This document shows, piece by piece, positions 4,215 through 21,368 of a stretch of 21,368 nucleotides of DNA. Each line of letters opens with the position of its first letter. Positions within the stretch are counted from its first letter, which is position 1. The notes under the pieces are model-generated. The model was not told the origin of the DNA. It did no database searches and worked only from the letters and a program-made list of their open reading frames with translations. The translations under genes and the position numbers were made by a program. Origin of the DNA: a virus; the IMG/VR virus record IMGVR_UViG_3300044637_001401, positions 1-21,368 of that record; one strand, given 5' to 3'.

Positions 4215-4877
4215 TTATCTGGGGGAGAGAACTCTTAAGTTCTCTCCTTTTTTAGTATTGTCATCAACATACTGAGAAGAGAACCCATAAGACATGATAG
4301 TTCTCATATCATCAATAGCAGTCTGAAGGTATCTACTCCTTAAGACATAGATATTTCTTTTATTATTGTTCAGCAGAATCTCATACTCATAAATGCTTAT
4401 AAGTTTTACTGGATTAACTGTAATTGATTGAGTTAAATTTTCATCATAATAGGTCACAGTAAAATTTGAATCAACTTCTTTTCCTTCAGGAATAATTAAT
4501 TTTCCTCTTGAATCAATAACTGCAGTTGTTTCATAATGATGAGCACTATCTAATTCATCTTGAGTGTATTTTCTAAAAATATAATCAGAAAATTCAGCAT
4601 CAGATAATGGCCATTCAGTTCTGATGTTTATGATATTGTTTGATATAAGAACTACCCAATCATAAGAAGGACTTCCATATAGTTTTTCTGCTACTTGTTC
4701 TGGTCTCTCTTCTCCAATAATTTTATACTTTGTAAATGCAGTAGCATTTTGAAAGAAGTCATCACGAATTTTTGCTCTACGAAATAAATTCTTGACTCTT
4801 ACATAATCATAAGAAGAGTTTCTATTTGGTTGTTGGGACTGGTAAAGTAAGTCCGATACTTCTCTAAAATATGTCAT
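4215..4877 (-). CDS. 53: Baseplate wedge protein gp53-like
   Basis: A 220-aa protein with the gp53 pattern: YDYVRVKNLFRRAKIRDDF, then TKYKIIGEERPEQVAEKLYGSPSYDWVVLISNN, then the W of RTEWPLS. That block is the LysM-like signature seen in T4 gp53 (RPEELANAIYGNPQLYWVLLMCN), which connects neighbouring wedges when the six wedges join around the hub. The C-terminal half (about 110-205), with beta-strand-rich VTYYDENLTQSITVNPV, is an extension relative to the core. Its ATG overlaps the gp48 stop by four bases (ATGA). It ends next to the gp32 stop, and its last dozen residues are encoded by the gp32 terminator hairpin. Confidence 0.85.
   Translation of the reverse strand: MTYFREVSDLLYQSQQPNRNSSYDYVRVKNLFRRAKIRDDFFQNATAFTKYKIIGEERPEQVAEKLYGSPSYDWVVLISNNIINIRTEWPLSDAEFSDYIFRKYTQDELDSAHHYETTAVIDSRGKLIIPEGKEVDSNFTVTYYDENLTQSITVNPVKLISIYEYEILLNNNKRNIYVLRSRYLQTAIDDMRTIMSYGFSSQYVDDNTKKGENLRVLSPR
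4224..4253 (+). terminator. Intrinsic terminator after gp32
   Basis: GGAGAGAAC (4224-4232), a TCTTAA loop, and GTTCTCTCC (4239-4247) form a perfect 9-bp stem extendable through the loop palindrome, followed directly by six T residues (4248-4253). It begins nine bases after the gp32 stop. It is one-directional: on the minus strand no T-run follows the stem. The stem lies wholly inside the 3' end of the convergent gp53 gene. Confidence 0.92.
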
Positions 4878-7279: not shown

Positions 7280-8113
7280 ATGGCAGGATTTCCAGTAGAC
7301 AATAATAATACTTGGATAAATGATGGATTATGGAAAACAGCAAGTGCCACAGAAACTGTTATTAAAAGTGAAGGACTTTTAAATTTATCTTTAACATCAA
7401 TTTTTGCAGTTGATATTAAGGCAGGCAACATAGCAAACACTCTTGGATTTACTCAAAACCAAACTCAAACAATATCTCTGCTTGCATACGAAGCAGTTCT
7501 TCCTGGAGCATCTTATGAACTTGGAAGTGTATTTGGTGATAGACAAGGTGTTACTGAACAATATCCGACTAAAAGAATTTATCCTCCTGTAGATGTAAGT
7601 TTTTATATAAAGTATGATTATGATGTCTTAAGATTTTTTAATGGTTGGATGGATCTAATTTCTCCATTGAATGAAGGTGGTGGTGTAGCACAAAATGCTT
7701 ACTTTAAATTTAATTATCCAAACAAATATGAATGCAATATTAATATTGTCAAGTTTGAAAGAGAGTTTAGACCATCAAATCAAAGACTTTCTAAAAGGGG
7801 AACTGAGGGTGGCATAAATGATCCAAAAACTTATACCTACTCATTGATCAATGCATATCCATCAAATTTAATTTCAGTTCCAGTATCATATGAGCAATCA
7901 AATATACTAAGAACTACAATCACTTTTAATTATGATAGGTATTATATACAAGAGAATGTTGGTAAGTTATATCAAGATCCAAATCAACCAAATCAACCAA
8001 ATCAGACAAATGCTACTGGAGGAACTTTAGGAGAATTAAATAGGCAAGTTGATTTAATTAATAGATTTATTCCATCCACAGGATTAAATCCAATACCACG
8101 TGGAGTTGGATAA
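7280..8113 (+). CDS. Tail-tube-fold baseplate protein, gp54-like candidate
   Basis: A 277-aa protein. The centre, IYPPVDVSFYIKYDYDVLRFFNGWMDLISP (in two pieces: VDVSFYIKYDYD and VLRFFNGWMDLI), resembles the strand-helix element of tail-tube-fold proteins such as T4 gp54 (VSFRMDSEACNYRAMQDWV) and gp19. The later part has YECNINIVKFERE and LINAYPSNLISVPVSYEQSN with RTTITFNYDRYYI, typical of the closing strands of that fold. In T4, gp54 sits on gp48 and primes the tube. The C-terminus has a PNQPNQPNQTN linker and a short conserved tail. It is divergently paired with the gp4-gp48 operon and followed by gp26, all parts of tail-tube initiation. The fold is moderately sure; the name gp54 is inferred from fold and context. 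Confidence 0.55.
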   Translation: MAGFPVDNNNTWINDGLWKTASATETVIKSEGLLNLSLTSIFAVDIKAGNIANTLGFTQNQTQTISLLAYEAVLPGASYELGSVFGDRQGVTEQYPTKRIYPPVDVSFYIKYDYDVLRFFNGWMDLISPLNEGGGVAQNAYFKFNYPNKYECNINIVKFEREFRPSNQRLSKRGTEGGINDPKTYTYSLINAYPSNLISVPVSYEQSNILRTTITFNYDRYYIQENVGKLYQDPNQPNQPNQTNATGGTLGELNRQVDLINRFIPSTGLNPIPRGVG

Positions 8114-8122
8114 TAAATAGTC
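8111..8122 (+). promoter_or_regulatory. Possible late-type promoter before gp26
   Basis: TAATAAATAGTC overlaps the preceding stop codon and ends 23 bases before the gp26 ATG. It shares the AATAAATA core with the T4 late box, and lies in one of the few gaps (32 bases) of the plus-strand tail run. AT-rich background makes chance matches common. Confidence 0.3.
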
Positions 8123-8145: not shown

Positions 8146-8877
8146 ATGCCTTTACCTAAAGTTGTAACTCCAACCTATGAGTTGATTCTGCCATCAACTA
8201 AAAAACCAGTTAAATACAGACCATTCCTGGTTAAAGAAGAAAAAATTTTAATCCTTGCTATGGAGGGTGGTGACCCAAAAGAAATCACCAATGCAGTTAA
8301 AACTACTCTTAAAGATTGTGTTTTGACAAGAGGAATTAAAATTGATACTCTTCCAAGTTTTGATATTGAATACCTGTTTTTAAATATCAGAGCAAAATCT
8401 GTTGGAGAAACAGTAGAGTTAATTATTACTTGTCCAGATGATAACAAAACTCAAGTAGATGTTGCTGTTAATATTGATGAGATTGAAGTCATAATTCCAG
8501 AAGGTCATACTGATCAAATCAAGATTGATGATTCAATCACAATCAAAATGAAGTATCCATCTCTTCAAGAATTTATTGATAATAACTTTAATTTCTCAGC
8601 ACAAAATAATAGTAAAGAAACTATTAATAAATCATTTGATATTGTTGCATCATGTATTGACATGGTATACACTAAAGAAGAATCATGGTCATCTTCTGAT
8701 GTAACTAGGAAAGAAATAATTGAGTGGCTGGAAACTTTTGATTCTAATCAGTTCAAAGGCATTGAAGAGTTTTTTGATACTATGCCAAAACTTTCACATA
8801 CTTTGACAGTTAAGAATCCAAGCACTGGCATTGAAAATGAAATTATTTTGGAAGGACTTTCCAGTTTTTTCGGATAA
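8146..8877 (+). CDS. 26: Baseplate hub assembly protein gp26-like
   Basis: A 243-aa protein with the gp26 pattern (T4 gp26 is 208 aa): LPKVVTPTYELILPSTKKPVKYRPFLVKEEKILILAME in pieces such as YELILPSTKK and YRPFLVKEEKILILAMEG, then VKTTLKDCVLT, then SFDIEYLFLNIRAKSVGETVEL, then CPDDNKTQVDVAVNIDEIEV. This N-terminal motif (target of the form yrPFLVKEEKiLllA) is the signature of the T4 base-plate protein family. In T4, gp26 with gp51 and gp28 acts in assembling the central hub. The next gene begins inside its stop codon (TAATG), and the pairing with the small gp51-like protein repeats the T4 26-51 order. No Shine-Dalgarno sequence precedes the ATG. Confidence 0.85.
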   Translation: MPLPKVVTPTYELILPSTKKPVKYRPFLVKEEKILILAMEGGDPKEITNAVKTTLKDCVLTRGIKIDTLPSFDIEYLFLNIRAKSVGETVELIITCPDDNKTQVDVAVNIDEIEVIIPEGHTDQIKIDDSITIKMKYPSLQEFIDNNFNFSAQNNSKETINKSFDIVASCIDMVYTKEESWSSSDVTRKEIIEWLETFDSNQFKGIEEFFDTMPKLSHTLTVKNPSTGIENEIILEGLSSFFG

Positions 8878-9056
8878 TGCTAAGTCATGAAGACTTAGAA
8901 TCTTATTACAGAATTAACTTTGCCTTGATGCAGTATCATAAATACTCATTGACTGAGATTGAAAATATGATGCCTTGGGAACGTGAAATTTACTTGGCAC
9001 TTCTTGAAAATCACATTAGAGAAGAAGAGGAAAAAGCACAAAAGGCAAATAGATGA
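8877..9056 (+). CDS. 51: Small baseplate hub assembly protein, gp51-like (59 aa)
   Basis: A 59-aa gene that is easy to miss. It starts at ATG 8877, sharing a base with the gp26 stop (TAATG), and its TGA overlaps the next ATG (ATGA), leaving no gap. The protein begins MLSHEDLESYYRINF and contains SLTEIENMMPWEREIYLALL followed by a charged helix EEEEKAQKANR. A PWEREIYLxLL block is what I recall in the short gp51 proteins of cyanophages, placed between gp26 and the tape-measure gene; T4 gp51 is much longer (about 249 aa). It also resembles the small helical tail-assembly chaperones that precede tape-measure genes in other tailed phages. The gene is well supported by packing; the name is less sure. 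Confidence 0.75.
   Translation: MLSHEDLESYYRINFALMQYHKYSLTEIENMMPWEREIYLALLENHIREEEEKAQKANR
8938..8945 (+). promoter_or_regulatory. Late-box match ATAAATAC inside the gp51-like gene
   Basis: CATAAATACTCATT closely follows the T4 late consensus TATAAATACTATT, and lies about 110 bases upstream of the first tape-measure-like gene. It falls inside a coding region, so codon chance is a fair alternative. Confidence 0.3.
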
Positions 9057-10765
9057 CACCAGAAGATTTTGATTACTTCAGAAATAGAACATCCAAATTT
9101 ATTTCAGGTACAAATCGTGGAATTAAATTTGGATCTTTTGGTTCGCCTAACATTAGAAAGTTATCAATAATTCCAAAAAGATCTGTACCTCAACAGATAG
9201 TAAATAAATTATCCTCAGCATCATTAGGACAAAATGATGGAATAGAAACAACAAAAAGAGATGTTTCATACTTTGGAAAGATAACTTTAAATCTTGAACA
9301 AACTAAAAATAATTTAGAAAGAATTCTTCAAGTCATTGCTGATGACTATAAGACTTCTAAAGAAACTAATCAAAAGGAAGTAGATGAATATAGAAAAAGA
9401 ATTGCAAATAGAGGTAGAATATTTGGAAAGAAAGAATTAGGAGATAAAAAAACTGATATACTTGGAGGAGTTAAAAAATATGTTGGATCATTCTTTAGTG
9501 GAGTTGGTGGTTCTATTAGAGGATTAGCAGCATTTAATTTATTGGAAGCAATTTTAAGTGGGGATCCCACAAAAATTATAGGTCCACTTCTTGGCATTGG
9601 TGCAACATATCTTCCAGCAATTGGAGCTGCTGTTGGAGTGTCAGTTGCTAAAAGTTTAGGTAAAGGACTACTTGGACTTGGTGGAAGTGCTGCTCCAGCA
9701 GCATCTGCAGCAGCAGGAGCAGGAAGTTCTTTAGGTAAGTTCGGAAGATTTGCAGGTAAGGCAGGACTAGTTGCAGGAGGAATTGGACTGGCAAGTAGTC
9801 TATTCAATAGAAGTGGGGGAGGAGAACAGACACAGCAAAGATTAGAGGATCTAACACAGCAACAGAAGGCATTAGTTGAACCTGGAAATTTAGTTTCCAT
9901 TCCTCAAAATGATTTAAGAAGATTTGAATCACTTAACAATAAATTTGAAAAGGCAATTGATTTTCTCTTAGCAAAACAAAAAGAAGGTGGGGGGAGAAGA
10001 TCTTCTTCTTCTGGTGGTGGACCTGGACCTGGACCTGGACCAACAGGACAACTTATGACTGGACCTGCTCCCACTGAAGTTAATGCTTTGATGTCTGCAA
10101 TCTCAGGAGCAGAGGGTGGTTTAGAGTCAGTTAATACAATAGGAACTCTTCCTGGACTGTCTCAAATGACAATAGATGATGCCATAGCAAAAGTAGAGCA
10201 GTTAAAATCCCAAGGAAAGACTTCTGGGGCTATGGGAAGAATGCAGCAAATGTCCCAATTTTTGAGGGGTAGAGCAGTTGCTGCTGGATTGGATCCTTCC
10301 ACTGCACTATTTAATGAGGAGAATCAATACAAAATTGATAGGGCATATCTTGCAAGTTTATTTTCTGGTGGAGAGCAAGAAATAGTAAATCTAATAAGGT
10401 CTGGAAAAATTTCTACAGTAGTTAATAAATTAAAAGGAGTCTGGCCATCTCTTCCTGGAGGAAGTCAAGAAAATGTTCACACATCAGGTTTCTATAGAAA
10501 CTTTCAATCATTTTTAGGGCAATTATCATCTGCAGGACCATCTCCAATTCAATTGCCACCAATGGCACCAGCACTACCAAGAAGAAATATACCATCTCCA
10601 GCATCTGCAGCACCAACTTTTGTTCCTATGGCAGTTCCACAACAAACAGCACCACAACAAACTTCTGCAGCATCTGGAGTCAATGATCAGGTTCCAGCAT
10701 TCTCAACAACATATTCAGAAAACTTCTTGACCTTGTATTCAAAGTTAATCTATCAGGTTGTTTGA
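9053..10765 (+). CDS. Tape-measure-like tail protein with lysozyme-like C-terminal domain
   Basis: A 570-aa protein. Residues about 60-125 are a charged helical stretch; about 140-255 are hydrophobic, Gly/Ala-rich segments (FFSGVGGSIRGLAAFNLLEAI, IIGPLLGIGATYLPAIGAAVG, AGLVAGGIGLASSLF) typical of tape-measure proteins. A Gly/Pro linker (GGGPGPGPGPTG, about 322-333) leads to a domain at about 343-500 beginning ALMSAISGAEGG, where Glu354 sits where lysozyme-like or transglycosylase phage domains carry their catalytic Glu; GAMGRMQQMSQFLRGRA and NEENQYKIDRAYLASLF fit the following helices. The C-terminal 70 residues are Pro/Gln-rich and end LYSKLIYQVV. It sits where T4 has gp29 and may set tail length or fill the tube, with wall-cleaving activity. 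It is paralogous in layout to the next gene. Enzyme activity is inferred. Confidence 0.65.
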   Translation: MTPEDFDYFRNRTSKFISGTNRGIKFGSFGSPNIRKLSIIPKRSVPQQIVNKLSSASLGQNDGIETTKRDVSYFGKITLNLEQTKNNLERILQVIADDYKTSKETNQKEVDEYRKRIANRGRIFGKKELGDKKTDILGGVKKYVGSFFSGVGGSIRGLAAFNLLEAILSGDPTKIIGPLLGIGATYLPAIGAAVGVSVAKSLGKGLLGLGGSAAPAASAAAGAGSSLGKFGRFAGKAGLVAGGIGLASSLFNRSGGGEQTQQRLEDLTQQQKALVEPGNLVSIPQNDLRRFESLNNKFEKAIDFLLAKQKEGGGRRSSSSGGGPGPGPGPTGQLMTGPAPTEVNALMSAISGAEGGLESVNTIGTLPGLSQMTIDDAIAKVEQLKSQGKTSGAMGRMQQMSQFLRGRAVAAGLDPSTALFNEENQYKIDRAYLASLFSGGEQEIVNLIRSGKISTVVNKLKGVWPSLPGGSQENVHTSGFYRNFQSFLGQLSSAGPSPIQLPPMAPALPRRNIPSPASAAPTFVPMAVPQQTAPQQTSAASGVNDQVPAFSTTYSENFLTLYSKLIYQVV

Positions 10766-10768
10766 TAA

Positions 10769-12772
10769 ATGAATATACAAACTCTTTTAAATAAACCTAA
10801 AGTAGAATCTAATCTTACTCCCAAGATTACTAAGATTAGTAGTCTTGTAGAATCTTCTAATGAGATAAGAAAGTCATCTAATAAATTAAGAAAAACTTTT
10901 GAAAAGGGAACTTATCAAAAGAAAACTCAATTAACAGTACTAAACAGATATAAAAAAAGATTAGATTCTATTCAAAAGCAAAATGATAAAAGATTTGCTC
11001 AAAAGAAAAAGGTACAAATTAAACCACCAGACATTAAAAAATATACTGGAAATTTATTTACTGCAGGATCTGCTAGTGATCCTTTAAAATCATTAGCAGC
11101 ATTGTCTGCATTTAATGCTGCATCAAAATTAAAGGATGGTAAGTGGGTAGATGCTATTGGACCTGGATTAGTTGCTGCAGGATTAATGTTTGGTCCTGGA
11201 TTGCTTAAAGGTGGGATTGGTAGAATGGGTGGACCAGGAAAACCCAGTGGACAACCTGCAACATCATCAGGAATGGTTAGTTCCAAATCATCATATGCAG
11301 GAACAAAAGCAGGACAGGCATATGCTGGAATGCAAGCACAAAGAAATCTTCCCAAATGGGCACAGAAAGCAGCAGGTGGGAGTGCTAGTAGATTTGCAGC
11401 ATCCAATGAAAGGATGTTTCAAGGAACTGCAAACATAGGAGATAGGGCTAGACTCGCATCTAGAAAGTTTGGATTTTCTGGTGCTGGTGGAATAGCAGAA
11501 AGACTTTCTGCTAAATCTGGAGGAACTGTTGCAGCAAAGGCAGCAGGTGTTGGGGGAAGAGCAATTCCTTTATTGGGCGCAGCACTTAACATAGGTCTTT
11601 CTGCTTATAGATTTAGTGAAGGTGATGTTGTTGGAGGTATTCTATCTGCTGTAAGTGCAATACCAGTTATTGGATGGGCAGCTTTGGGTGTTGATTTGGC
11701 AAGAGAGTTTGGTGCTTTTGATGGAACTTTCCTGGGAAGAAAAGATAAACTTAAAGAACAAACGCAAAAACAAAAAGAATTAGTCAAGGGACAACAGGAT
11801 AGGGGAGGTGGGTTAACCTTTGGAAAAACTTTGAATAGTTATGAAAGGGTAGTGAATAAATTTGAACAATTTTGCAAATCATTTAAAACTGTTCAAGAAA
11901 TAAATGATATGACTGAAGGAGGATCTTCAAATCCCCCAGCAATATCAACTGATCCTTATACTGGTCCAATAGATGGAAATTCTTTTAATCCTCTACCTGG
12001 AGGAACTTTAAGCAATAGGTCAGTTGGATTTCCTGGGGGAGAATATGGTGCAGATAGAAATTATGGAGGTCACTCTGGACAAGATATTGGAGGATTGCCT
12101 CCAGGATCTCCTGTAGTTGCTTGGAAAACTGGTAAAGTTAGTTATAGTGGTTCAGTAGAATCTGGAGATACTATTGTTACTATAGACCATGGGGGAGGAG
12201 TTCAATCTGTATATAAGCATGTTGTTCCAACCATTCCAGAAGGCAGTACAGTTTATGGTGGGCAACAGATTGCCACATTATTTAATGCTAGAAAATATGC
12301 ACCTCACTTACATTTTGAGGTGTGGAGAAATGGAAGGCATGTAAACCCAAATCAAGATATTTCTTCATCACAAAGAATATCCTCACCATTAACAGCAGAA
12401 AGAGCAAAACAAAACTATGAATCTTCATCTCAAAATATGAGGATTCCAACACCACCACCACAACAAAATCCACTTGGTCTTTCAATTGGTGCTGGAGGAT
12501 TTAATATTAATGGCAGACCAATACAGCAAACACAAAGACAAACTCCACAAATTGCATCTCCTCCAGTAATGCAAAGACCCACACTTGCAACATACCTTTC
12601 ATATGATTCTAGATCACAGGCAGGACAAGTAATACCTTTTCCAATTACTATCCCACAACAACAACCACAGATGATGCAACAAGAATCTTCTGCTCCTATG
12701 ATGATGGGACCATCAGAGGAACAACTGTTAAATAGTTTTTATAAGAGAGTACTCCTCAATACATTACAGTAA
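10769..12772 (+). CDS. Tape-measure-like tail protein with M23 peptidase domain
   Basis: A 667-aa protein. The N-terminus is charged and helical (about 1-90), then KKYTGNLFTAGSASDPLKSLAALSAFNA and AIGPGLVAAGLMFGPGLLKGG echo the preceding protein. A second hydrophobic block, IPLLGAALNIGLSAYRF and VVGGILSAVSAIPVIGWAALGVD, spans about 267-315. Residues about 425-525 are a LytM/M23 zinc metallopeptidase: GGHSGQDIG gives His435 and Asp439, and APHLHFEVW gives His513 and His515, the full HxxxD...HxH zinc and catalytic set; TIDHGGGVQSVYKH lies between. M23 enzymes cut peptide cross-links of peptidoglycan. The tail is Gln/Pro-rich and ends FYKRVLLNTLQ, like its neighbour's end. It starts three bases after the previous stop, and its stop shares a base with gp27. 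Confidence 0.8.
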   Translation: MNIQTLLNKPKVESNLTPKITKISSLVESSNEIRKSSNKLRKTFEKGTYQKKTQLTVLNRYKKRLDSIQKQNDKRFAQKKKVQIKPPDIKKYTGNLFTAGSASDPLKSLAALSAFNAASKLKDGKWVDAIGPGLVAAGLMFGPGLLKGGIGRMGGPGKPSGQPATSSGMVSSKSSYAGTKAGQAYAGMQAQRNLPKWAQKAAGGSASRFAASNERMFQGTANIGDRARLASRKFGFSGAGGIAERLSAKSGGTVAAKAAGVGGRAIPLLGAALNIGLSAYRFSEGDVVGGILSAVSAIPVIGWAALGVDLAREFGAFDGTFLGRKDKLKEQTQKQKELVKGQQDRGGGLTFGKTLNSYERVVNKFEQFCKSFKTVQEINDMTEGGSSNPPAISTDPYTGPIDGNSFNPLPGGTLSNRSVGFPGGEYGADRNYGGHSGQDIGGLPPGSPVVAWKTGKVSYSGSVESGDTIVTIDHGGGVQSVYKHVVPTIPEGSTVYGGQQIATLFNARKYAPHLHFEVWRNGRHVNPNQDISSSQRISSPLTAERAKQNYESSSQNMRIPTPPPQQNPLGLSIGAGGFNINGRPIQQTQRQTPQIASPPVMQRPTLATYLSYDSRSQAGQVIPFPITIPQQQPQMMQQESSAPMMMGPSEEQLLNSFYKRVLLNTLQ

Positions 12773-14139
12773 TGGCAGGATCATATTTAAATTACCAGAT
12801 TAAAGAGTTTTTAATTGAATCTTATGATGGAAGCACTGTCATAAATGCAACTGAATGCATATCACAGGTTCAATATTTTGAGGATTTATTTTCTCCTGCT
12901 ATTTTTGTATCAATGATTTTAGTTAATACTGATGGGTTGTTAACTTCACTTCCAAGTAAGGACCCATCTATAAAACCTGGAATTAAAGGTGGAGAAAGAG
13001 TTAGGTTAATTATAGAGCAAACTGCAACAAAAAATAATAAGAAAGTAATCAATAGAATAGATTTTACTGACACAAATAAAAATCCATACTTCATTTATAA
13101 AATCTCAGGATCAACAACAGAATCTACAAGAGAAGTTTTCTTTGTAGAGTTAGCTCCAGCAGAACTTTTTACAAATGAAACATCAAGAGTTTTTAGAAGA
13201 TACCCTGAAGATGAAGGTGGCAATCAAACAATAGACATTACTGTACAGCAAATACTAAAAGATGTTTTAAAAACTAACAAAAAATTAAACAAAGATCAAA
13301 CTCAAAATAGTTATGCATTTTTTGGCAATTCTAAAAAACCATTCACAGTATTGACTTGGTTATGTCCAAAGTCAATTCCAACAATAAGTTCATCAAGTGG
13401 ATCTAAAGGGACTGCAGGATTTCTTTTTTATGAAAATAACAAAGGATATAATTTTAGAAGTGTTGATAGTTTAATTTCTAATCTAGATCCAAATTCTGCA
13501 AGTGCAAAAAGTGCAGTTAAGTATTCTCTTCCCAATGTAATTTCAAATTCAGCATCTGAGGCATCCAATTTTACAATTGTATCCATGCCAGTGTTTGAAA
13601 AGAATGTGAGCATATTTGAAAATCTAAGAATAGGAATGTATTCAAGTGTCAATTATTTTTTTGATGCCAATACCAGAGAGTTAAGTGTGTATGAATATAA
13701 ACTTTCAGAAAGTTATGATTTGATGAAACATGCATCCAAAAGTTCAGAGAAACCTAAAATTCCAAATCAATTGGAGAACTCTCCATCTAGATTGATGGTC
13801 AAGATAATAGACAATTTAGTGACCCAATCTTCAGATGCAAATGAAAATCAAAAGATAGATAAAAGAGAGCAATATCAATCACAATCTGTTGCAAGATATA
13901 ATTTAGCATTTAGTCAGATGTTAAATATAACTATACCATTAAATTTAAATTTGACAGTGGGTGATGTAATCCAGTTAGATTTTTCAAACATCACAAAAGA
14001 TGCTGAAAGTAGTGGATTAAGAGATGATTTAAAATCTGGATTTTATTTAATAAAAGAATTATCCCATTTGTTCAAAGAAAATAGTGGGTATACAGGATTA
14101 AAACTTATTAGAGACTCTTATGGATCTCCAGGAACATGA
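12772..14139 (+). CDS. 27: Central baseplate hub protein gp27-like
   Basis: A 455-aa protein with the layout of T4 gp27 (391 aa), the trimeric hub torus that joins the spike (gp5) to the tail tube. It opens with SYLNYQIKEFLIESYDGST, ISQVQYFEDLFSPAIFVSMIL, matching the tube-like first domain; GERVRLIIEQTA and YFIYKISGSTTESTREVFFVEL follow, where T4-like hub proteins have paired strands; then TVQQILKDVLKT and a tower domain with AGFLFYENNKGYNFRSVDSL. NITIPLNLNLTVGDVIQLDFSNI and SGFYLIKELSHLF near the end are the typical final beta elements of hub proteins in contractile systems. It overlaps both neighbours by a few bases. No CG dinucleotide occurs anywhere in this gene. Confidence 0.82.
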   Translation: MAGSYLNYQIKEFLIESYDGSTVINATECISQVQYFEDLFSPAIFVSMILVNTDGLLTSLPSKDPSIKPGIKGGERVRLIIEQTATKNNKKVINRIDFTDTNKNPYFIYKISGSTTESTREVFFVELAPAELFTNETSRVFRRYPEDEGGNQTIDITVQQILKDVLKTNKKLNKDQTQNSYAFFGNSKKPFTVLTWLCPKSIPTISSSSGSKGTAGFLFYENNKGYNFRSVDSLISNLDPNSASAKSAVKYSLPNVISNSASEASNFTIVSMPVFEKNVSIFENLRIGMYSSVNYFFDANTRELSVYEYKLSESYDLMKHASKSSEKPKIPNQLENSPSRLMVKIIDNLVTQSSDANENQKIDKREQYQSQSVARYNLAFSQMLNITIPLNLNLTVGDVIQLDFSNITKDAESSGLRDDLKSGFYLIKELSHLFKENSGYTGLKLIRDSYGSPGT

Positions 14140-14348
14140 CAAACATTAACGATCATATCAAAAAGGATCAAGAAGAATTAACTGATCCTATGATTTCTTC
14201 ACAAAGACGTAGACATATAGAAGATGAATTAGATTCTCTTGAAAAATATCATAAGAATCATCCAGGGGATGATCATGACCCAACTGCACTTGAACTATTT
14301 TGTGATACCAACCCAGATTCACCAGAGTGTAGGGTATATGATCTATGA
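14136..14348 (+). CDS. CP12-like small protein within the hub operon (70 aa)
   Basis: A 70-aa acidic protein whose end, ALELFCDTNPDSPECRVYDL (51-70), has the pattern of the C-terminus of CP12 (LExFCDxNPxxxECRxYDD), including the Cys56-X8-Cys65 pair. CP12 is a redox-controlled peptide that uses this Cys pair loop to bind GAPDH and then PRK, switching off the Calvin cycle; many cyanophages carry a copy. Here the N-terminal Cys pair and AWDxVEEL core of full CP12 are absent; instead RRRHIEDELDSLEKYH (24-39) forms a charged helix. It overlaps gp27 (14136-14139) and the gp5-like gene (ATGA at 14345-14348), so it is co-expressed with late baseplate genes. It could be a metabolic regulator riding in a structural operon, or a virion/assembly peptide that borrowed the CP12 tail. 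The motif is seen; the role is open. Confidence 0.75.
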   Translation: MTNINDHIKKDQEELTDPMISSQRRRHIEDELDSLEKYHKNHPGDDHDPTALELFCDTNPDSPECRVYDL

Positions 14349-16327
14349 TGCTTGAGCAAAGTTTAATTAATCCCAACTTTCTTGGCAGAGATGGATTCAG
14401 ATGGTTCATTGGACAAATTCCTGTTGGGGATTCTGTAAAGGAAGGTAGGGCTAAAGTTAGAATCCTTGGGCATCACCCAGGAGATGCTCAAATAAAGGAT
14501 AAAAATCTTCCTTGGGCTCACATTTTAGTTCCATTATCTTTTGGTAGTGGTGCAGGAAATTGTGGGACCAATATTAATGTTCAACCAGGGACTTTTGTTA
14601 TTGGATTTTTTCTTGATGGCGATGATGGACAACAACCAGTAATTATTGGAGCATTATCTGATGATGATCCAAGTAAAATCAAAGTATCTGAAAAATACAC
14701 AGAAATTTTAAATAAAGGAACCTCAAATTTTCAACCATGGTATCCACCACCTCCAAGGAATACTTGGGTTCAACCAACATCAACTGATAAACCTGCAGCC
14801 ACTGGAGGAACCAATGTTAATGGAACAACCAATACTCCAACAGGACCTCAAGGCACTCAAGGACCACAAACCAAAGAGGTAACTTCTAAGGGTCAAAAAT
14901 TAACAACAACAGAAGGAATTACAATAGTAGTTCCATCAGAATGTACTAATGGAAATAAAAAATTTAATGACCTCCAATTAGCATTAATAAAATTCATACA
15001 GTTCACTAATACAATCCAAAATATAAACGGTGCATATATTAATCCAGTATTAAACACTGTTGTCAACCTAGATGATCAAATTAATTCTTCTGCTAGAGTA
15101 ATAACAGATATTATTACTGGAATAATTAGAGGTGCAATGAATGTAATAGTAGAGGAAATTTATGAAAGGTTGACTGATTGGTTAGGCATTCCTGGACAAC
15201 CACCAGTAGTTAAACTAGCAACTCACAAATCAGTAGAGACTGTTATTGATAGCATCATTTGTGCATTTGAAAAAGCATTGACAAAACTCCTCCAATTTGT
15301 ATTAGATTTCTTAATGCAAATGGTTGAGGATGTTCTTGCAGCTCCAGTTTGTGCTGTGGAAGCACTTGTTGGAGAATTGTTGGGGGGAATTTCCAATGAA
15401 ATTGATGATGCAATAGAAGATTCATTGGATGAAATTACATCTTTAATAGGTGGTCAAATCAGCAATGTAGTTTCATATGTTTCTCAATCAGTATCATTAG
15501 CACAATCTGCCCTCAAATTTCTTTCTTGTGAACCATCTCAATGTTATGAAACTTATAACTATGAATTAAATAAGGGATGGGTTCCAGCATCAAGTCCAAA
15601 TTTCCAAAAAATTCTTGGATATGCAAGTGCTACCCCAGTTAGAAATTTATCAGAAGATATTAAAAAGTCTACAAATAATTGGTATGATTCTGTTGGTCTT
15701 GGTACAGGACAGTCTCAGTACTCAGTTGAAGGTGGCAGTTGTGATGCTGGCATCTTGCAGTGTGGTTCTCCTACAGTGTCTATTTTTGGTGGTGGTGGAT
15801 ATGGGGCATCTGCAAATGCCATAATAGATCCTTCTGGAAAAATATTTGGATATTTAATTAATGATTCTGGCAGTGGATATACTTCTCCACCATTTGTAAC
15901 AATAGAGGATGCTTGTTATAATGGAAGTGGAGCAGTTGCCACAGCATTAATTAATGATGGTAAAGTTCAGAACATAATAGTATCAAATTCAGGTTCTGGA
16001 TATATTGGAACATCGGATTATGTTGGAATAGTTTCCAGTTTTATTATAACTGATACTGGAATTGGATATACATCCAAAGACACTATTACAATTAAAGGAA
16101 CTGATGTTTTGGCAAATCCAATACTTGATCAGTATGGAAGAATCACTGGCATAATGGTAGTGAATCCAGGAACTGAAATCAAATCCTCACCAATTATTGA
16201 AATAAATACTCAAAGTGGGCAAGGAGCAAATATAACTCCAGTGTTAAGTTTTAAACCTTTAAGTGAAGTTTCTCCCATAAAACAGAAAGTACAAACAGTA
16301 GTGTATTGCGCAGAGGATCATGTCTAA
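14345..16327 (+). CDS. gp5-like baseplate hub/spike protein with OB fold, without lysozyme
   Basis: A 660-aa protein. About 10-110 is the OB-fold domain of gp5-type spike proteins: FRWFIGQIPV, RAKVRILGHHPGD, LPWAHILVPLSF, VQPGTFVIGFFLDGDDGQQPVIIGAL. A Pro/Thr-rich linker with PTGPQGTQGPQ (about 164-174) follows. No T4-lysozyme-like domain is seen; instead about 200-400 is helical, with hydrophobic stretches such as VIDSIICAFEKALTKLLQFV and VCAVEALVGELLGGI. The last 170 residues are repeats of about 40 residues with NDSGSGYTSPPFVTI, SNSGSGYIG, TDTGIGYTSKDTITI. ATGATG offers two starts (14345 or 14348); the first overlaps the CP12-like stop. The following gene supplies the beta-helix spike that T4 gp5 has on the same chain. 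Confidence 0.75.
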   Translation: MMLEQSLINPNFLGRDGFRWFIGQIPVGDSVKEGRAKVRILGHHPGDAQIKDKNLPWAHILVPLSFGSGAGNCGTNINVQPGTFVIGFFLDGDDGQQPVIIGALSDDDPSKIKVSEKYTEILNKGTSNFQPWYPPPPRNTWVQPTSTDKPAATGGTNVNGTTNTPTGPQGTQGPQTKEVTSKGQKLTTTEGITIVVPSECTNGNKKFNDLQLALIKFIQFTNTIQNINGAYINPVLNTVVNLDDQINSSARVITDIITGIIRGAMNVIVEEIYERLTDWLGIPGQPPVVKLATHKSVETVIDSIICAFEKALTKLLQFVLDFLMQMVEDVLAAPVCAVEALVGELLGGISNEIDDAIEDSLDEITSLIGGQISNVVSYVSQSVSLAQSALKFLSCEPSQCYETYNYELNKGWVPASSPNFQKILGYASATPVRNLSEDIKKSTNNWYDSVGLGTGQSQYSVEGGSCDAGILQCGSPTVSIFGGGGYGASANAIIDPSGKIFGYLINDSGSGYTSPPFVTIEDACYNGSGAVATALINDGKVQNIIVSNSGSGYIGTSDYVGIVSSFIITDTGIGYTSKDTITIKGTDVLANPILDQYGRITGIMVVNPGTEIKSSPIIEINTQSGQGANITPVLSFKPLSEVSPIKQKVQTVVYCAEDHV

Positions 16328-16868
16328 TAATGGTTTAGTTTTTTATGATAAGGATTCTGGTGTTTTAGTTATAGGTGAAGATGATAAGGGCAGAATTAGA
16401 CAAGTTCAACTGTCCTCATCATCTGGAGGAAGTTTAAAATTTTATGAGGATGGTGCATTTGAACTGGTAGGACAACCTTCAGCAACTTTAGGTGATAATG
16501 TTGTAAGTCAATCTTCTCATGGATTGAAAATTTATTCTAAAGGGGATTTAAATATTTACAGTGAGGGAAAAATAACACTTAAAGGTCAACAAATTATCTT
16601 TGATAGTGGAAGTTCTACTCAGGACTTTGTTTTAAAAAATGAAAATGGTGGCATTAGAATTGAAGCACCTAATGGCAATATTGGTATTAAGGGCAAAAAT
16701 GTTGCAGTTTCTGCAAAAAGAGATCTTTTACTAAGATCTAAGGGAAATGTGCATATTGTTGCAGATGGTGGTCAGGTGTTTATAATTGAACCAAAATCAA
16801 AATTAGTACCATCATCTGTTTTGGGTATAGTAAATAAAGTTACATCAGCATTAGGGGGTTGGGTTTAA
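16320..16868 (+). CDS. Beta-helix spike protein (gp5 C-domain-like)
   Basis: A 182-aa protein whose residues about 60-155 repeat short strand units with Gly turns: GLKIYSKGDLNIYSEGKITL, GGIRIEAPNGNIGIKGKNVAV, DLLLRSKGNVHIVADGGQVF. This is the repeat style of the triple-stranded beta-helix needle of T4 gp5 and of VgrG-type spikes. N-terminal DKGRIRQVQLSSSSGGSLKFYEDGAFEL may be the trimer start. Immediately downstream of the OB-fold protein and overlapping it by eight bases, it probably forms the membrane-puncturing needle as a separate chain. The end (VLGIVNKVTSALGGWV) is a hydrophobic tail. No PAAR-type tip motif is seen in it. Confidence 0.72.
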   Translation: MSNNGLVFYDKDSGVLVIGEDDKGRIRQVQLSSSSGGSLKFYEDGAFELVGQPSATLGDNVVSQSSHGLKIYSKGDLNIYSEGKITLKGQQIIFDSGSSTQDFVLKNENGGIRIEAPNGNIGIKGKNVAVSAKRDLLLRSKGNVHIVADGGQVFIIEPKSKLVPSSVLGIVNKVTSALGGWV

Positions 16869-17599
16869 TGTCAAATTTTACAGACATTTATACTGGTGGT
16901 CTTCATGTTGGATCTGGACTGGTCCCACCAATTGCTTCTGCAACATTTGAGCAAAGTTTAGATCCTACTAGACCATTTGCAACACATAGTTTAGGAATCA
17001 ATCAATTTGAATCCATTACAAATCAACTTGGAATTCACAATCAAGTTGGGTTATATAATGGCATTGGTATGTGGGATCAACTTGGGGTTTATAATGGAAT
17101 AGGTCAAGGAATTTTTGTAGGAGGACATCAAGATTGCCAACCATACTATGACAGTTCTGCTGTATCAATAAATTTAAATTCTCCAGAAGGAGATTTTAAT
17201 GGATTCTGGAAGTATAATGGCAATTGCATACAGACTACACCATGCTCAGATTCTTCTGCTAAAAAGGATATAAAACAACTTGAAAATTCTTTAGAAAAAA
17301 TAAAACTTCTTAGAGGTGTTTCTTTTAATTGGGATGAAAATGTTGTTCCAAATTTAGCAACTAGTGAGGGAAATCAGGTAGGTCTTATTGCACAAGAAGT
17401 TGAGGAAGTAGTGCCTGAGGTTGTATTTACCACCATAGTGGAAAATAATAAGTTAAAGTCTATTAAGTATGAAAATCTTACCTCACTTTTGATTGAAGCA
17501 GTCAAAGAACAGCAAGAGCAAATCAATGAACTCAAGAAGACAGTTTCCAAACTGTCCACTGGTTGCACAAAGTGCTCAGGTTCGTGCTATAGTGGATAG
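16868..17599 (+). CDS. Tail protein with S74 intramolecular chaperone domain
   Basis: A 243-aa protein, taking ATG 16868, which shares a base with the previous stop; an in-frame TTG nine bases upstream is less likely. Residues about 52-85 hold six-residue repeats (QLGIHN, QVGLYN, GIGMWD, QLGVYN, GIGQGI), suggestive of a beta-solenoid or trimeric stem. The C-terminal half is a peptidase S74 chaperone: CSDSSAKKDIKQLENSLEKI with Ser127-Asp128, the site type where these domains self-cleave, then VSFNWDEN, GLIAQEVEEVVPEVV, and LTSLLIEAVKEQQEQINELKK forming the terminal coiled coil (about 203-230). Such domains fold trimeric fibres and spikes, then cut themselves off. The last residues are Cys-rich (Cys233, 236, 240). 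It may be a fibre or spike-tip component; its exact place in the tail cannot be read. Confidence 0.78.
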   Translation: MSNFTDIYTGGLHVGSGLVPPIASATFEQSLDPTRPFATHSLGINQFESITNQLGIHNQVGLYNGIGMWDQLGVYNGIGQGIFVGGHQDCQPYYDSSAVSINLNSPEGDFNGFWKYNGNCIQTTPCSDSSAKKDIKQLENSLEKIKLLRGVSFNWDENVVPNLATSEGNQVGLIAQEVEEVVPEVVFTTIVENNKLKSIKYENLTSLLIEAVKEQQEQINELKKTVSKLSTGCTKCSGSCYSG

Positions 17600-17836: not shown

Positions 17837-17863
17837 ATACACTTTCCTAAATAGGAAGTGTAT
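17837..17863 (+). promoter_or_regulatory. Leader hairpin covering a ribosome-binding site
   Basis: ATACACTTTCCT (17837-17848) pairs with AGGAAGTGTAT (17853-17863) in an 11-bp stem with one extra T, closing an AAAT loop. The 3' arm holds AGGAAG, the only good Shine-Dalgarno sequence near the HNH start, so it would be sequestered in any transcript from the promoter at 17788. T4 homing endonuclease genes are known to be silenced in early messages by hairpins over their ribosome-binding sites. The loop region contains CTAAATA, a weak likeness to a late box. Confidence 0.65.
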
Positions 17864-17875
17864 GTGCTAATTAAA

Positions 17876-18298
17876 ATGAGAACTAGAGATGAATTATTAA
17901 ATGCAGTCGAAGGTGCTCAATCAATGGCTGAGGTTGTAAGGAGATTAAATCTTAATAAGAGTAGTAATACATATTCTACTCTTAGAAAAGAATTAGAATA
18001 TCACAAAGTAAATACTCAATTCAAAAAAAGAAGTAGAGGAACTAGTCCATACTCAAATGAAAAGATATTTTGTGAGAATTCTACTTATGATAGAAAAACT
18101 CTTAGGAACAGAATTATTAAAGAAAAAATTCTTGAATATGAATGTAAAGAATGTGGTATAACTGATTGGAATAAAAAGAAACTTTCCCTTCAATTAGATC
18201 ATATAAATGGAGTTTCTAATGACAATAGGATAAAAAATTTAAGATTTCTTTGTCCTAATTGTCATTCTCAAACAGAAACTTGGGGGAATAAAAAATAA
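17876..18298 (+). CDS. HNH homing-type endonuclease
   Basis: A 140-aa protein (from ATG 17876). The N-terminus MRTRDELLNAVEGAQSMAEV...LNLN is a helix-turn-helix-like DNA-binding part as in many phage HNH proteins. The C-terminal nuclease has a Cys pair CKECG, then LQLDHINGVSNDNRIKNLRFL with the His of DH and following Asn, then CPNCHSQTETW, giving two zinc Cys pairs and the final His of the beta-beta-alpha HNH fold. In-frame GTG starts exist at 17858 and 17864; GTG 17864 is five bases after GGAAG, whereas ATG 17876 has no nearby Shine-Dalgarno sequence but matches the usual start of the family. It is free-standing, not in an intron, beside a tRNA gene, as homing endonucleases often are. It is preceded by a strong promoter and a hairpin leader. 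Confidence 0.85.
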   Translation: MRTRDELLNAVEGAQSMAEVVRRLNLNKSSNTYSTLRKELEYHKVNTQFKKRSRGTSPYSNEKIFCENSTYDRKTLRNRIIKEKILEYECKECGITDWNKKKLSLQLDHINGVSNDNRIKNLRFLCPNCHSQTETWGNKK

Positions 18299-18310
18299 TT
18301 TTTTCATTAT

Positions 18311-18383
18311 GGGGATGTAGTCCAGCGGAAGAGACAGTAGACTTAAAATCTATCCAGGGTGGGTTCGAATCCCACCATCCCTA
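18311..18383 (+). tRNA. tRNA with anticodon UAA (Leu), class-I shape
   Basis: A 73-base cloverleaf: acceptor GGGGATG (18311-18317) with CATCCCT (18376-18382; first pair G-U), a 3-bp D stem (GTC 18320-18322 with GAC 18333-18335), anticodon stem GTAGA (18337-18341) with TCTAT (18349-18353), loop CTTAAAA with anticodon TAA at 18344-18346, a five-base variable loop, T stem GTGGG/CCCAC with loop TTCGAAT, and A73. No CCA is encoded. The anticodon reads UUA/UUG, so leucine is indicated, and the anticodon loop and T arm look like those of T4 tRNA-Leu. Bacterial leucine tRNAs have a long variable arm; this one does not, and its D arm looks more like tRNA-Gln. The identity is therefore leucine by anticodon only. 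Confidence 0.88.
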
Positions 18384-18453
18384 TTTCAAAATTGACTTTT
18401 TATTTCAAAAAAGGGGGCAAAAAATCTCCAGGTAAAAATTGCCTGTAGGGTTT
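18384..18453. other. Gap after the tRNA with short direct repeats
   Basis: No gene is seen. TATTTCAAAA occurs at 18382-18391, overlapping the tRNA's last two bases, and again at 18401-18410. On the minus strand CAGG/CCTG arms around 18430-18442 followed at a distance by a T-run could be a poor terminator for the minus-strand gene that ends at 18454. Nothing stronger is visible. Confidence 0.4.
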
Positions 18454-19271: not shown

Positions 19272-21368
19272 ATGCCTTTAGCTAGATTAGACAATTTCCT
19301 AAAAAATCTTAATGGTAATACATTATATGTGGATCCAAGTGAATTAGATTCAACTGATTCAATTGAGAATAGGGGTAATTCTAGAACAAGGCCCTTTAAG
19401 AGTATCCAAAGAGCATTACTTGAAGCAACAAGATTTTCTTATGTTGCTGGATCAAATAATGACCTGTATGATCAAACTACGATTTTAATTTCTCCAGGAA
19501 CTCACTATATTGATAATAGACCTGGATATTATTATGATGGAAGTGGATTTAGAGATATAAACAATAATCCTGTAACAATTACTGAGTTAAGTGTAACTTC
19601 AGAGTTTGATCTTGGAAATGCATTTAATGATTTGTACATTTATAATAGCGTTGAGGGGGGAGTTGTAGTACCTAAGGGGGTTTCTCTTGTAGCAACTGAC
19701 CTAAGAAAAACAAAAATCAGACCAAAATTTGTTCCAGATCCAGCAAATGACAATATTGCAAGATCTGCAATTTTTAGAGTAACTGGAGGTTCATATATTT
19801 TTGGATTTACCATCTTTGATGGAAATCCAACTGGAGGAGTCTATAATACATATACCACAAGCACTGTAAATCCAACATATTCTCACCACAAATTAACTGC
19901 TTTTGAATATGCAGATGGTAAGAATATTTTAGAAAATTCTACATTAACTGACCTTGCCAATTATTACTATAAAGTTAGTTTTGCATTTGGTTCATACTCT
20001 GGACGTTCTATTCCAGATACTCTTACAGACCTTCAACCAAACCCAGAAGAAAACAAGATTGTTGGGGATCTTGGTCAAGGAGCTATAGATATTTCAAATA
20101 TAGTTTCTGGTGATGGTTCTACTGCCACCACAACAATTACTGTTACTACAGCACAAGATCACAATCTTTCTCCATCATCACCTATTCAAATTTCTGGAGT
20201 TGGACCTAATAATACTACGGCAGTTCAGCAACAATTTAATGGAAATTTTGTAGTAGCACAGGTCATTAGTCCAACACAATTTACATATTTACTTCAGACA
20301 GCACCATCAGCAGCAAATCCAGAGGTTGGAAGTTCAACAGTAAAAATTCAATCTGATACAGTATCTTCAAGTTCTCCATACATTTTTAATTGTAGTTTAA
20401 AATCTACATATGGTTTAAATGGACTTCATGCAGATGGATCAAAGGCAACTGGATTTAAGAGTATTGTTACAGCACAATTTACTGGCATTTCATTACAAAG
20501 AGACGACAGAGCATTTGTATTATATGATGATGTATCTGGAACATATAAAACTCAAAGTGACCTAGGAACATCTACAGTATTACACCAAAATTCTAGATCA
20601 GTTTACAGACCATCTTGGGAAAGTTTCCATATTAAAGCTTCCAATGATGCATTTATTCAATGTGTATCTATTTTTGCTATTGGATATGCTACTCAATTCA
20701 TAGCAGAGTCTGGTGGTGATCAAAGTATTACTAATTCTAATAGTAACTTTGGTGCAATTTCCTTAACATCTTCTGGATTTAAAGACTATCAATTGCAAAA
20801 AGATAATCATGGATTTATAACGCATATCATCCCACCAAAAGATATTGATGATGCAGAAAGCAATATAAATTGTTATTCCATAGATGTAGATTTAACTACT
20901 GCCGTTGGAAATACTACAAAAATTTACTTAAATGGATATACTGATCAATTTACTCCACCAAGACAAAAAATTAGAGGGTATACTCTAGGTGCTAGAGACA
21001 ATGATGCAATTTATTATGCTGGATATAATGGGTCTGCAACTATAAGTCCAGATTATGAAACATCTTATAATATTGATAGTATATCAGATGGGGTTATTAC
21101 TGTTGAGGAAACTTTATCTGGAATTGTAGAAAACCAAGCAGTAAGAGTTATTTCCAACAATGGAGTTCTTCCAGATGGGTTAGAATCCAATAAAGTATAC
21201 TATGTTTCATCAAATTCTTTATCATCAACTACTGTAAAGTTAAAAGAAAGTCTTTCAAGTATCAACGATCTTGATATTACTAATGATATTGGAATTTCTA
21301 TAGAAGATAACTTAAAACTTGTTTTTAGAGTATCTGACTGTTCTCCAGGAGATCCAGGAAGTCCTTTC
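19272..21368 (+). CDS. Large beta-helix tail/baseplate protein, VrlC-like (5' part)
   Basis: An open frame from ATG 19272 to the window edge (699 codons, no stop). It opens MPLARLDNFLKNLNGNTLYV, then SIENRGNSRTRPFKSIQRALLEATRFSY, then TTILISPGTHYIDNRPGYYY and GVSLVATDLRKTKIRPKFVP. This is the start I recall for the large cyanophage virion proteins annotated as VrlC or simply structural protein. The PFKSIQRAL and ISPGTH / GVSLVATD pieces are the pattern of pectate-lyase-like parallel beta-helices, as in tailspikes. SIFRVTGGSYIFGFTIFDG continues that. About 280-360 has a Thr/Val-rich domain (TTTITVTTAQDHNLSPSSPIQISG in part), often seen as an added beta-sandwich. It is probably a tail or baseplate-fibre component; the receptor-binding end, if any, lies beyond the window. 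Confidence 0.75.
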   Translation, partial: MPLARLDNFLKNLNGNTLYVDPSELDSTDSIENRGNSRTRPFKSIQRALLEATRFSYVAGSNNDLYDQTTILISPGTHYIDNRPGYYYDGSGFRDINNNPVTITELSVTSEFDLGNAFNDLYIYNSVEGGVVVPKGVSLVATDLRKTKIRPKFVPDPANDNIARSAIFRVTGGSYIFGFTIFDGNPTGGVYNTYTTSTVNPTYSHHKLTAFEYADGKNILENSTLTDLANYYYKVSFAFGSYSGRSIPDTLTDLQPNPEENKIVGDLGQGAIDISNIVSGDGSTATTTITVTTAQDHNLSPSSPIQISGVGPNNTTAVQQQFNGNFVVAQVISPTQFTYLLQTAPSAANPEVGSSTVKIQSDTVSSSSPYIFNCSLKSTYGLNGLHADGSKATGFKSIVTAQFTGISLQRDDRAFVLYDDVSGTYKTQSDLGTSTVLHQNSRSVYRPSWESFHIKASNDAFIQCVSIFAIGYATQFIAESGGDQSITNSNSNFGAISLTSSGFKDYQLQKDNHGFITHIIPPKDIDDAESNINCYSIDVDLTTAVGNTTKIYLNGYTDQFTPPRQKIRGYTLGARDNDAIYYAGYNGSATISPDYETSYNIDSISDGVITVEETLSGIVENQAVRVISNNGVLPDGLESNKVYYVSSNSLSSTTVKLKESLSSINDLDITNDIGISIEDNLKLVFRVSDCSPGDPGSPF

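Follow-up and report, generated by a model that had tools for sequence, protein, structure and literature searches.

In Synechocystis, the C-terminal Cys pair of CP12 is the GAPDH site and is needed for GAPDH-linked phenotypes, the N-terminal pair serves for PRK, and CP12 variants without the N-terminal pair still retain the function of the GAPDH site (PMC9623430). Marine picocyanobacteria lack a classical CP12, and phages carry CP12-like proteins (reviewed in PMC3906501). Phage cp12 is highly expressed and has been tied to Calvin-cycle inhibition, and in P-HM2 it is a middle gene (PMC5082946). In phage genomes, cp12 has been placed 'near gp5', at variable positions and in a hot spot with tRNAs (Sullivan et al., 2010; PMC3037559).

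Here we examined a 21,368-nucleotide stretch of viral DNA (IMG/VR record IMGVR_UViG_3300044637_001401, positions 1 to 21,368; hereafter the window), in which a small CP12 gene (14136..14348, plus strand) sits between two genes of the baseplate hub.

Family assignment of the window gene

The gene encodes a 70-aa protein that terminates in LELFCDTNPDSPECRVYDL, and it was annotated from Pfam, PHROG, an alignment of phage copies and an AlphaFold2 model. The Pfam CP12 profile (PF02672) matches with 51.3 bits (E=2e-13) against a curated cut-off of 22.7 bits, aligning residues 5-69 on profile positions 2-70 of 70, and PHROG 627 matches with 102 bits (E=3e-29). At E<=1e-3, a tblastn search with the protein matched 362 phage records, each from a cyanophage or marine virus, and many of these are already labelled 'CP12'. 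The best PDB sequence matches are CP12 chains (down to E=6e-5), several of them in GAPDH complexes. The AlphaFold2 model, built from aligned sequences of the window, viral contigs and hosts, has a pLDDT of 91; two helices form its N-terminal part, and a short C-terminal one precedes the hairpin. When the model was compared with the PDB by Foldseek, CP12 chains from GAPDH complexes took the top four places, with weak E values (0.07-0.4), and in VIA-align CP12 is the best match (Z 4.8), with unrelated helical proteins scoring close. Judged by the profile matches, the ORF is a bona fide CP12, beyond a mere 'CP12-like' protein, and the gene is a member of the established cyanophage CP12 family (PHROG 627; T4-GC 337/63, Sullivan et al., 2010).

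The C-terminal hairpin has the layout C56-x3-P60-x4-C65, with a Cys spacing of C56-x8-C65, and the codons from C56 through C65 to Y68-D69 (C D T N P D S P E C R V Y D) occupy 14301..14342 on the plus strand. Across 73 phage CP12 copies (63 distinct), C56, P60, E64 and C65 are invariant, together with D48, P49 and E53 and an N-terminal set comprising H7, I8, R25, R26, H27, E31, L32, L35 and Y38. The dN/dS of the window CP12 against seven close relatives is 0.06-0.14. An invariant hairpin and a dN/dS of about 0.1 indicate that CP12 is a working protein; the idea of a degraded or truncated copy was rejected on account of this ratio and because the host proteins share the form. The preliminary description of this DNA had recognized the Cys-X8-Cys of the GAPDH-binding loop of CP12 and proposed a profile search, with an unrelated family or an unconserved pair as the outcomes that would tell against it; the search returned CP12 itself, and the pair is present in every phage sequence aligned.

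Divergent CP12 copies in the hub group of the window (L089, L090 and L093) all retain Cx3Px4C. One of these, in L089 (approximately 4323-4514), is a miniature 63-aa CP12 in hub position that has lost the acidic DDHDPT linker and kept the hairpin. Such retention in divergent and shortened copies points to selection on the hairpin. The last residue is Leu in the window CP12 (Val or Leu in its clade) and Asp in most CP12s, a replacement that might weaken the contact with GAPDH.

The window CP12 has only two Cys and no Trp, and both the N-terminal Cys pair and the AWD_VEEL core are absent, as the preliminary description had stated. This is no anomaly: the N-terminal Cys pair and AWD are missing from all 73 phage copies, and 13 host CP12s (Synechococcus, Cyanobium, Prochlorococcus) likewise lack the pair and AWD_VEE. 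The host proteins are colinear with the phage protein from end to end, two mid-protein residues being missing in phages. In a tree from 71 columns, which gives little resolution inside the phage clade, the phage CP12s form a single clade separate from the 13 host sequences (SH-aLRT 99). By its colinearity and its place in the phage clade, the window protein is of the cyanophage/picocyanobacterial C-only CP12 type. Because picocyanobacterial hosts share the C-only form, we regard it as inherited and not as a new phage device.

Hub position and late promoter boxes

The gene upstream of CP12 (12772..14139, plus strand) encodes the gp27-equivalent baseplate hub protein (T4-GC 15 family), a phrog_350 tail protein whose AlphaFold2 model matches T4 gp27 chains at E 8e-16. 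Downstream lies a gp5-like central spike (14345..16327, plus strand), which matches phrog_1922, baseplate hub and tail lysozyme, at E 3.5e-91 and T4 gp5 by PDB sequence at E 1e-4; the Pfam Gp5_OB match in this protein is under its cut-off. The gp27 stop and CP12 start share four nucleotides (ATGA, 14136-14139), as do the CP12 stop and gp5 start (ATGA, 14345-14348), so that the overlapping joins originally described are confirmed and the identities of both neighbours are now verified. By gene coordinates and Pfam/PHROG annotations, CP12 belongs to a run of nine plus-strand genes (8146..17599) that overlap or lie at most 4 nt apart, in the order gp26-like, gp51, unnamed, M23 peptidase, gp27, CP12, gp5, small protein and S74-chaperone protein. 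This run is probably a single late transcription unit.

Several other features of the region were recorded. The M23 peptidase domain is carried by a baseplate-region protein (10769-12772) encoded two genes before CP12, which places a cell-wall enzyme within the hub operon. Downstream of the operon, an HNH endonuclease ORF with a GTG start (17858-18298) lies beside tRNA-Leu(TAA) (18310-18384) and is likely, with this neighbour, a mobile insertion. An ORF of at least 699 aa (19272-21368) that runs past the window end probably encodes a tail fibre or baseplate protein.

Among 74 CP12 loci, a count in which the window appears both under its own name and as L001, gp27 adjoins CP12 in 62. Both gp27 and gp5 lie within 60 bp of CP12, one on either side, in 43 loci. 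In 14 others gp27 adjoins CP12 and gp5 lies no more than 3 kb away, and a further five have gp27 adjacent with no separate gp5 found within range; most of these lie close to the end of a contig, and in one (L016) gp5 is fused. CP12 is located elsewhere in the remaining 12. A second survey was seeded with gp27 alone to escape the bias of a CP12 search, and here CP12 was directly downstream of gp27 in 22 of 24 loci, some on contigs that repeat earlier ones. Of the other two, one ends at a contig edge just past the CP12 start and one (L094) has no CP12. In L094 (4340-4460), gp27 is followed directly by gp5, CP12 being lost, and a short stretch resembling the CP12 end may be a remnant. The gene-order comparison proposed at the outset thus found gp27-CP12-gp5 to recur. 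The arrangement is widespread and partly published already, and a placement that had been singled out as noteworthy is real without being unusual.

The published cyanomyovirus late promoter consensus is NATAAATA (PMC2984593). We searched for [ACT]TAAATA in the 80 nt upstream of CP12 in 73 loci (L002-L075 and the window), many of which are closely related, so that the events are not independent. The box occurs in 26/73 loci, always at -26 to -35, against a background of 3.3% in random 80-mers inside gp27. It is present in 18 of the 19 hub-linked copies that lie 20 bp or more from gp27, in none of the 42 hub-linked copies that overlap gp27 or have a gap below 20 bp (the window copy included), and in 8/12 relocated copies. 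Overlapping or tightly spaced copies without their own box must therefore ride on the hub transcript. The contrast in box occurrence between copies with and without upstream room is the one useful addition to the known picture.

In the window, an ATAAATA box resembling T4-type late promoters (8113..8119, plus strand), proposed as such from its position, starts 33 nt upstream of 8146, the first gene of the run. Late motifs across the whole window are not above chance in number, and the position alone is suggestive; a scan of 12.5-16.5 kb for sigma-70 promoters and terminators yielded sites no more numerous than in shuffles. Since a continuous overlapping run is headed by a late box and none precedes CP12, late co-expression with the hub is suggested, and the window CP12 is probably expressed late. 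Given that cp12 of P-HM2 is a middle gene, late timing is read here from gene layout alone. Of the proposal that CP12 is a late structural gene, late expression is thus probable and a structural role is unlikely.

Existing descriptions place phage CP12 among the metabolic genes of the middle phase. The layout suggests a late tie in many T4-like cyanophages, either through cotranscription with the tail hub or through a T4-type late box of its own. If transcriptomics confirms this tie, carbon-fixation shutdown in those phages would coincide with virion assembly instead of following nucleotide synthesis alone, and the current picture of how host carbon is rerouted by cyanophages would be refined.

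The hub position could also have no adaptive meaning, CP12 being a host-derived gene carried in a hot spot for insertions close to gp5 and cotranscribed only incidentally. This account is compatible with GAPDH inhibition, from which it differs only on the reason for the location, and we hold it to be tenable while leaning slightly against it. The hot spot with tRNAs and the variable cp12 positions reported by Sullivan et al. (2010) are in its favour, as are the CpeT, 2OG oxygenase or tRNA genes that occupy the same gap in other phages and the own late box borne by CP12 copies with upstream room. Against it, the inserted genes fall between CP12 and gp5, CP12 remaining beside gp27. Both deep halves of the phage CP12 tree also retain the hub position, as do 22 of 24 gp27-seeded loci, which exceeds the expectation for random insertion. 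Occurrence in both deep halves suggests that the hub position is probably ancestral and that relocations came later.

Predicted action on host GAPDH

We consider it very probable that the window gene is a picocyanobacterial C-only cyanophage CP12, made from a late hub transcript, that acts in the infected cell on host GAPDH. A late-expressed GAPDH inhibitor is the most likely role that we can predict for it from sequence, on the basis of family membership, the invariant hairpin, purifying selection, conserved position and the lack of an own late box. We infer that CP12 would be produced late from the baseplate-hub transcript, co-translated with gp27 and gp5, and that, by homology, its oxidised C-terminal disulfide hairpin would dock into host photosynthetic GAPDH. 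Docking would restrain the Calvin cycle, so that NADPH/ATP and carbon flow stay available to phage synthesis. Because the N-terminal Cys pair and AWD_VEE are missing, the protein is expected to act on GAPDH, with no canonical recruitment of PRK. A Calvin-cycle inhibitor made from the hub operon had been one of two options offered in the preliminary description, and the family match, the invariant hairpin and the gene run favour it.

The other option was a virion peptide with a CP12-type redox loop, perhaps meeting host GAPDH from an incoming particle. We regard a virion peptide of this kind, incorporated in or on the baseplate hub and delivered with the DNA to bind host GAPDH as infection begins, as highly improbable. 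Its specific form, in which CP12 is packaged with gp27 and the gp5 spike and injected, so that Calvin-cycle shutdown precedes phage gene expression, is marginally less probable again. The tight gp27-CP12-gp5 linkage in both deep halves of the tree speaks for a virion location, and the overlapping genes imply synthesis beside the hub proteins. Contig L016 (627-3392) even reads CP12 in frame into gp5, but the fusion misses the first ~45 residues of gp5 and the near-identical L023 has separate genes; as a probable deletion or assembly join, it was set aside. CP12 is not a required part of the hub, as relatives have gp27 directly followed by gp5: the hubs of S-SRM01 and P-SSM2 have no CP12, with gp27 and gp5 abutting or overlapping, and CP12 was lost in L094. 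At the hub site, the T4-like Pelagibacter phage HTVC008M carries two short ORFs, neither of which matches CP12. Relocated CP12 copies lie far from hub genes; that of P-HM1, the sister of P-HM2, is beside talC. The gp27 equivalent (_65) appears in the virion table of S-SZBM1, as does an 87-aa protein, and CP12 (_64) does not (PMC9146016); this is moderate evidence, since gp5 (_61) was also missed and sensitivity was limited. Together, the CP12-less hubs and this table make a virion role unlikely. A chance motif within a hub protein unrelated to CP12 has next to no likelihood and was dropped, as full-length matches to Pfam CP12, PHROG 627 and host CP12s rule against it and no point in its support was found.

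Comparison with known CP12 systems

The closest known systems are the cyanophage CP12s. Those of S-T4, S-RSM4, S-SM2 and DSL-LC03 share the length and C-only Cys pattern of the window copy, and those of S-T4, S-RSM4, S-SM2, DSL-LC02/03 and Sf-CH5 share its position between the gp27 equivalent and gp5. Identity of the window CP12 reaches 67% at best to isolates and 84% to an uncultivated contig. It differs from these systems further in its 4-nt overlaps on both sides and in a terminal Leu for Asp. Picocyanobacterial host CP12 is colinear, carries the same hairpin and likewise lacks the N-terminal Cys pair and AWD_VEE, whereas the phage copies form their own clade and have two middle residues fewer. 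With canonical CP12 (S. elongatus, T. elongatus and plants), the window copy shares the C-terminal CxxxPxxxxC hairpin but not the N-terminal Cys pair or AWD_VEEL, and canonical PRK binding is not expected of it. The observation is well founded; the gene itself is known, and so is its location, though the latter has been under-described.
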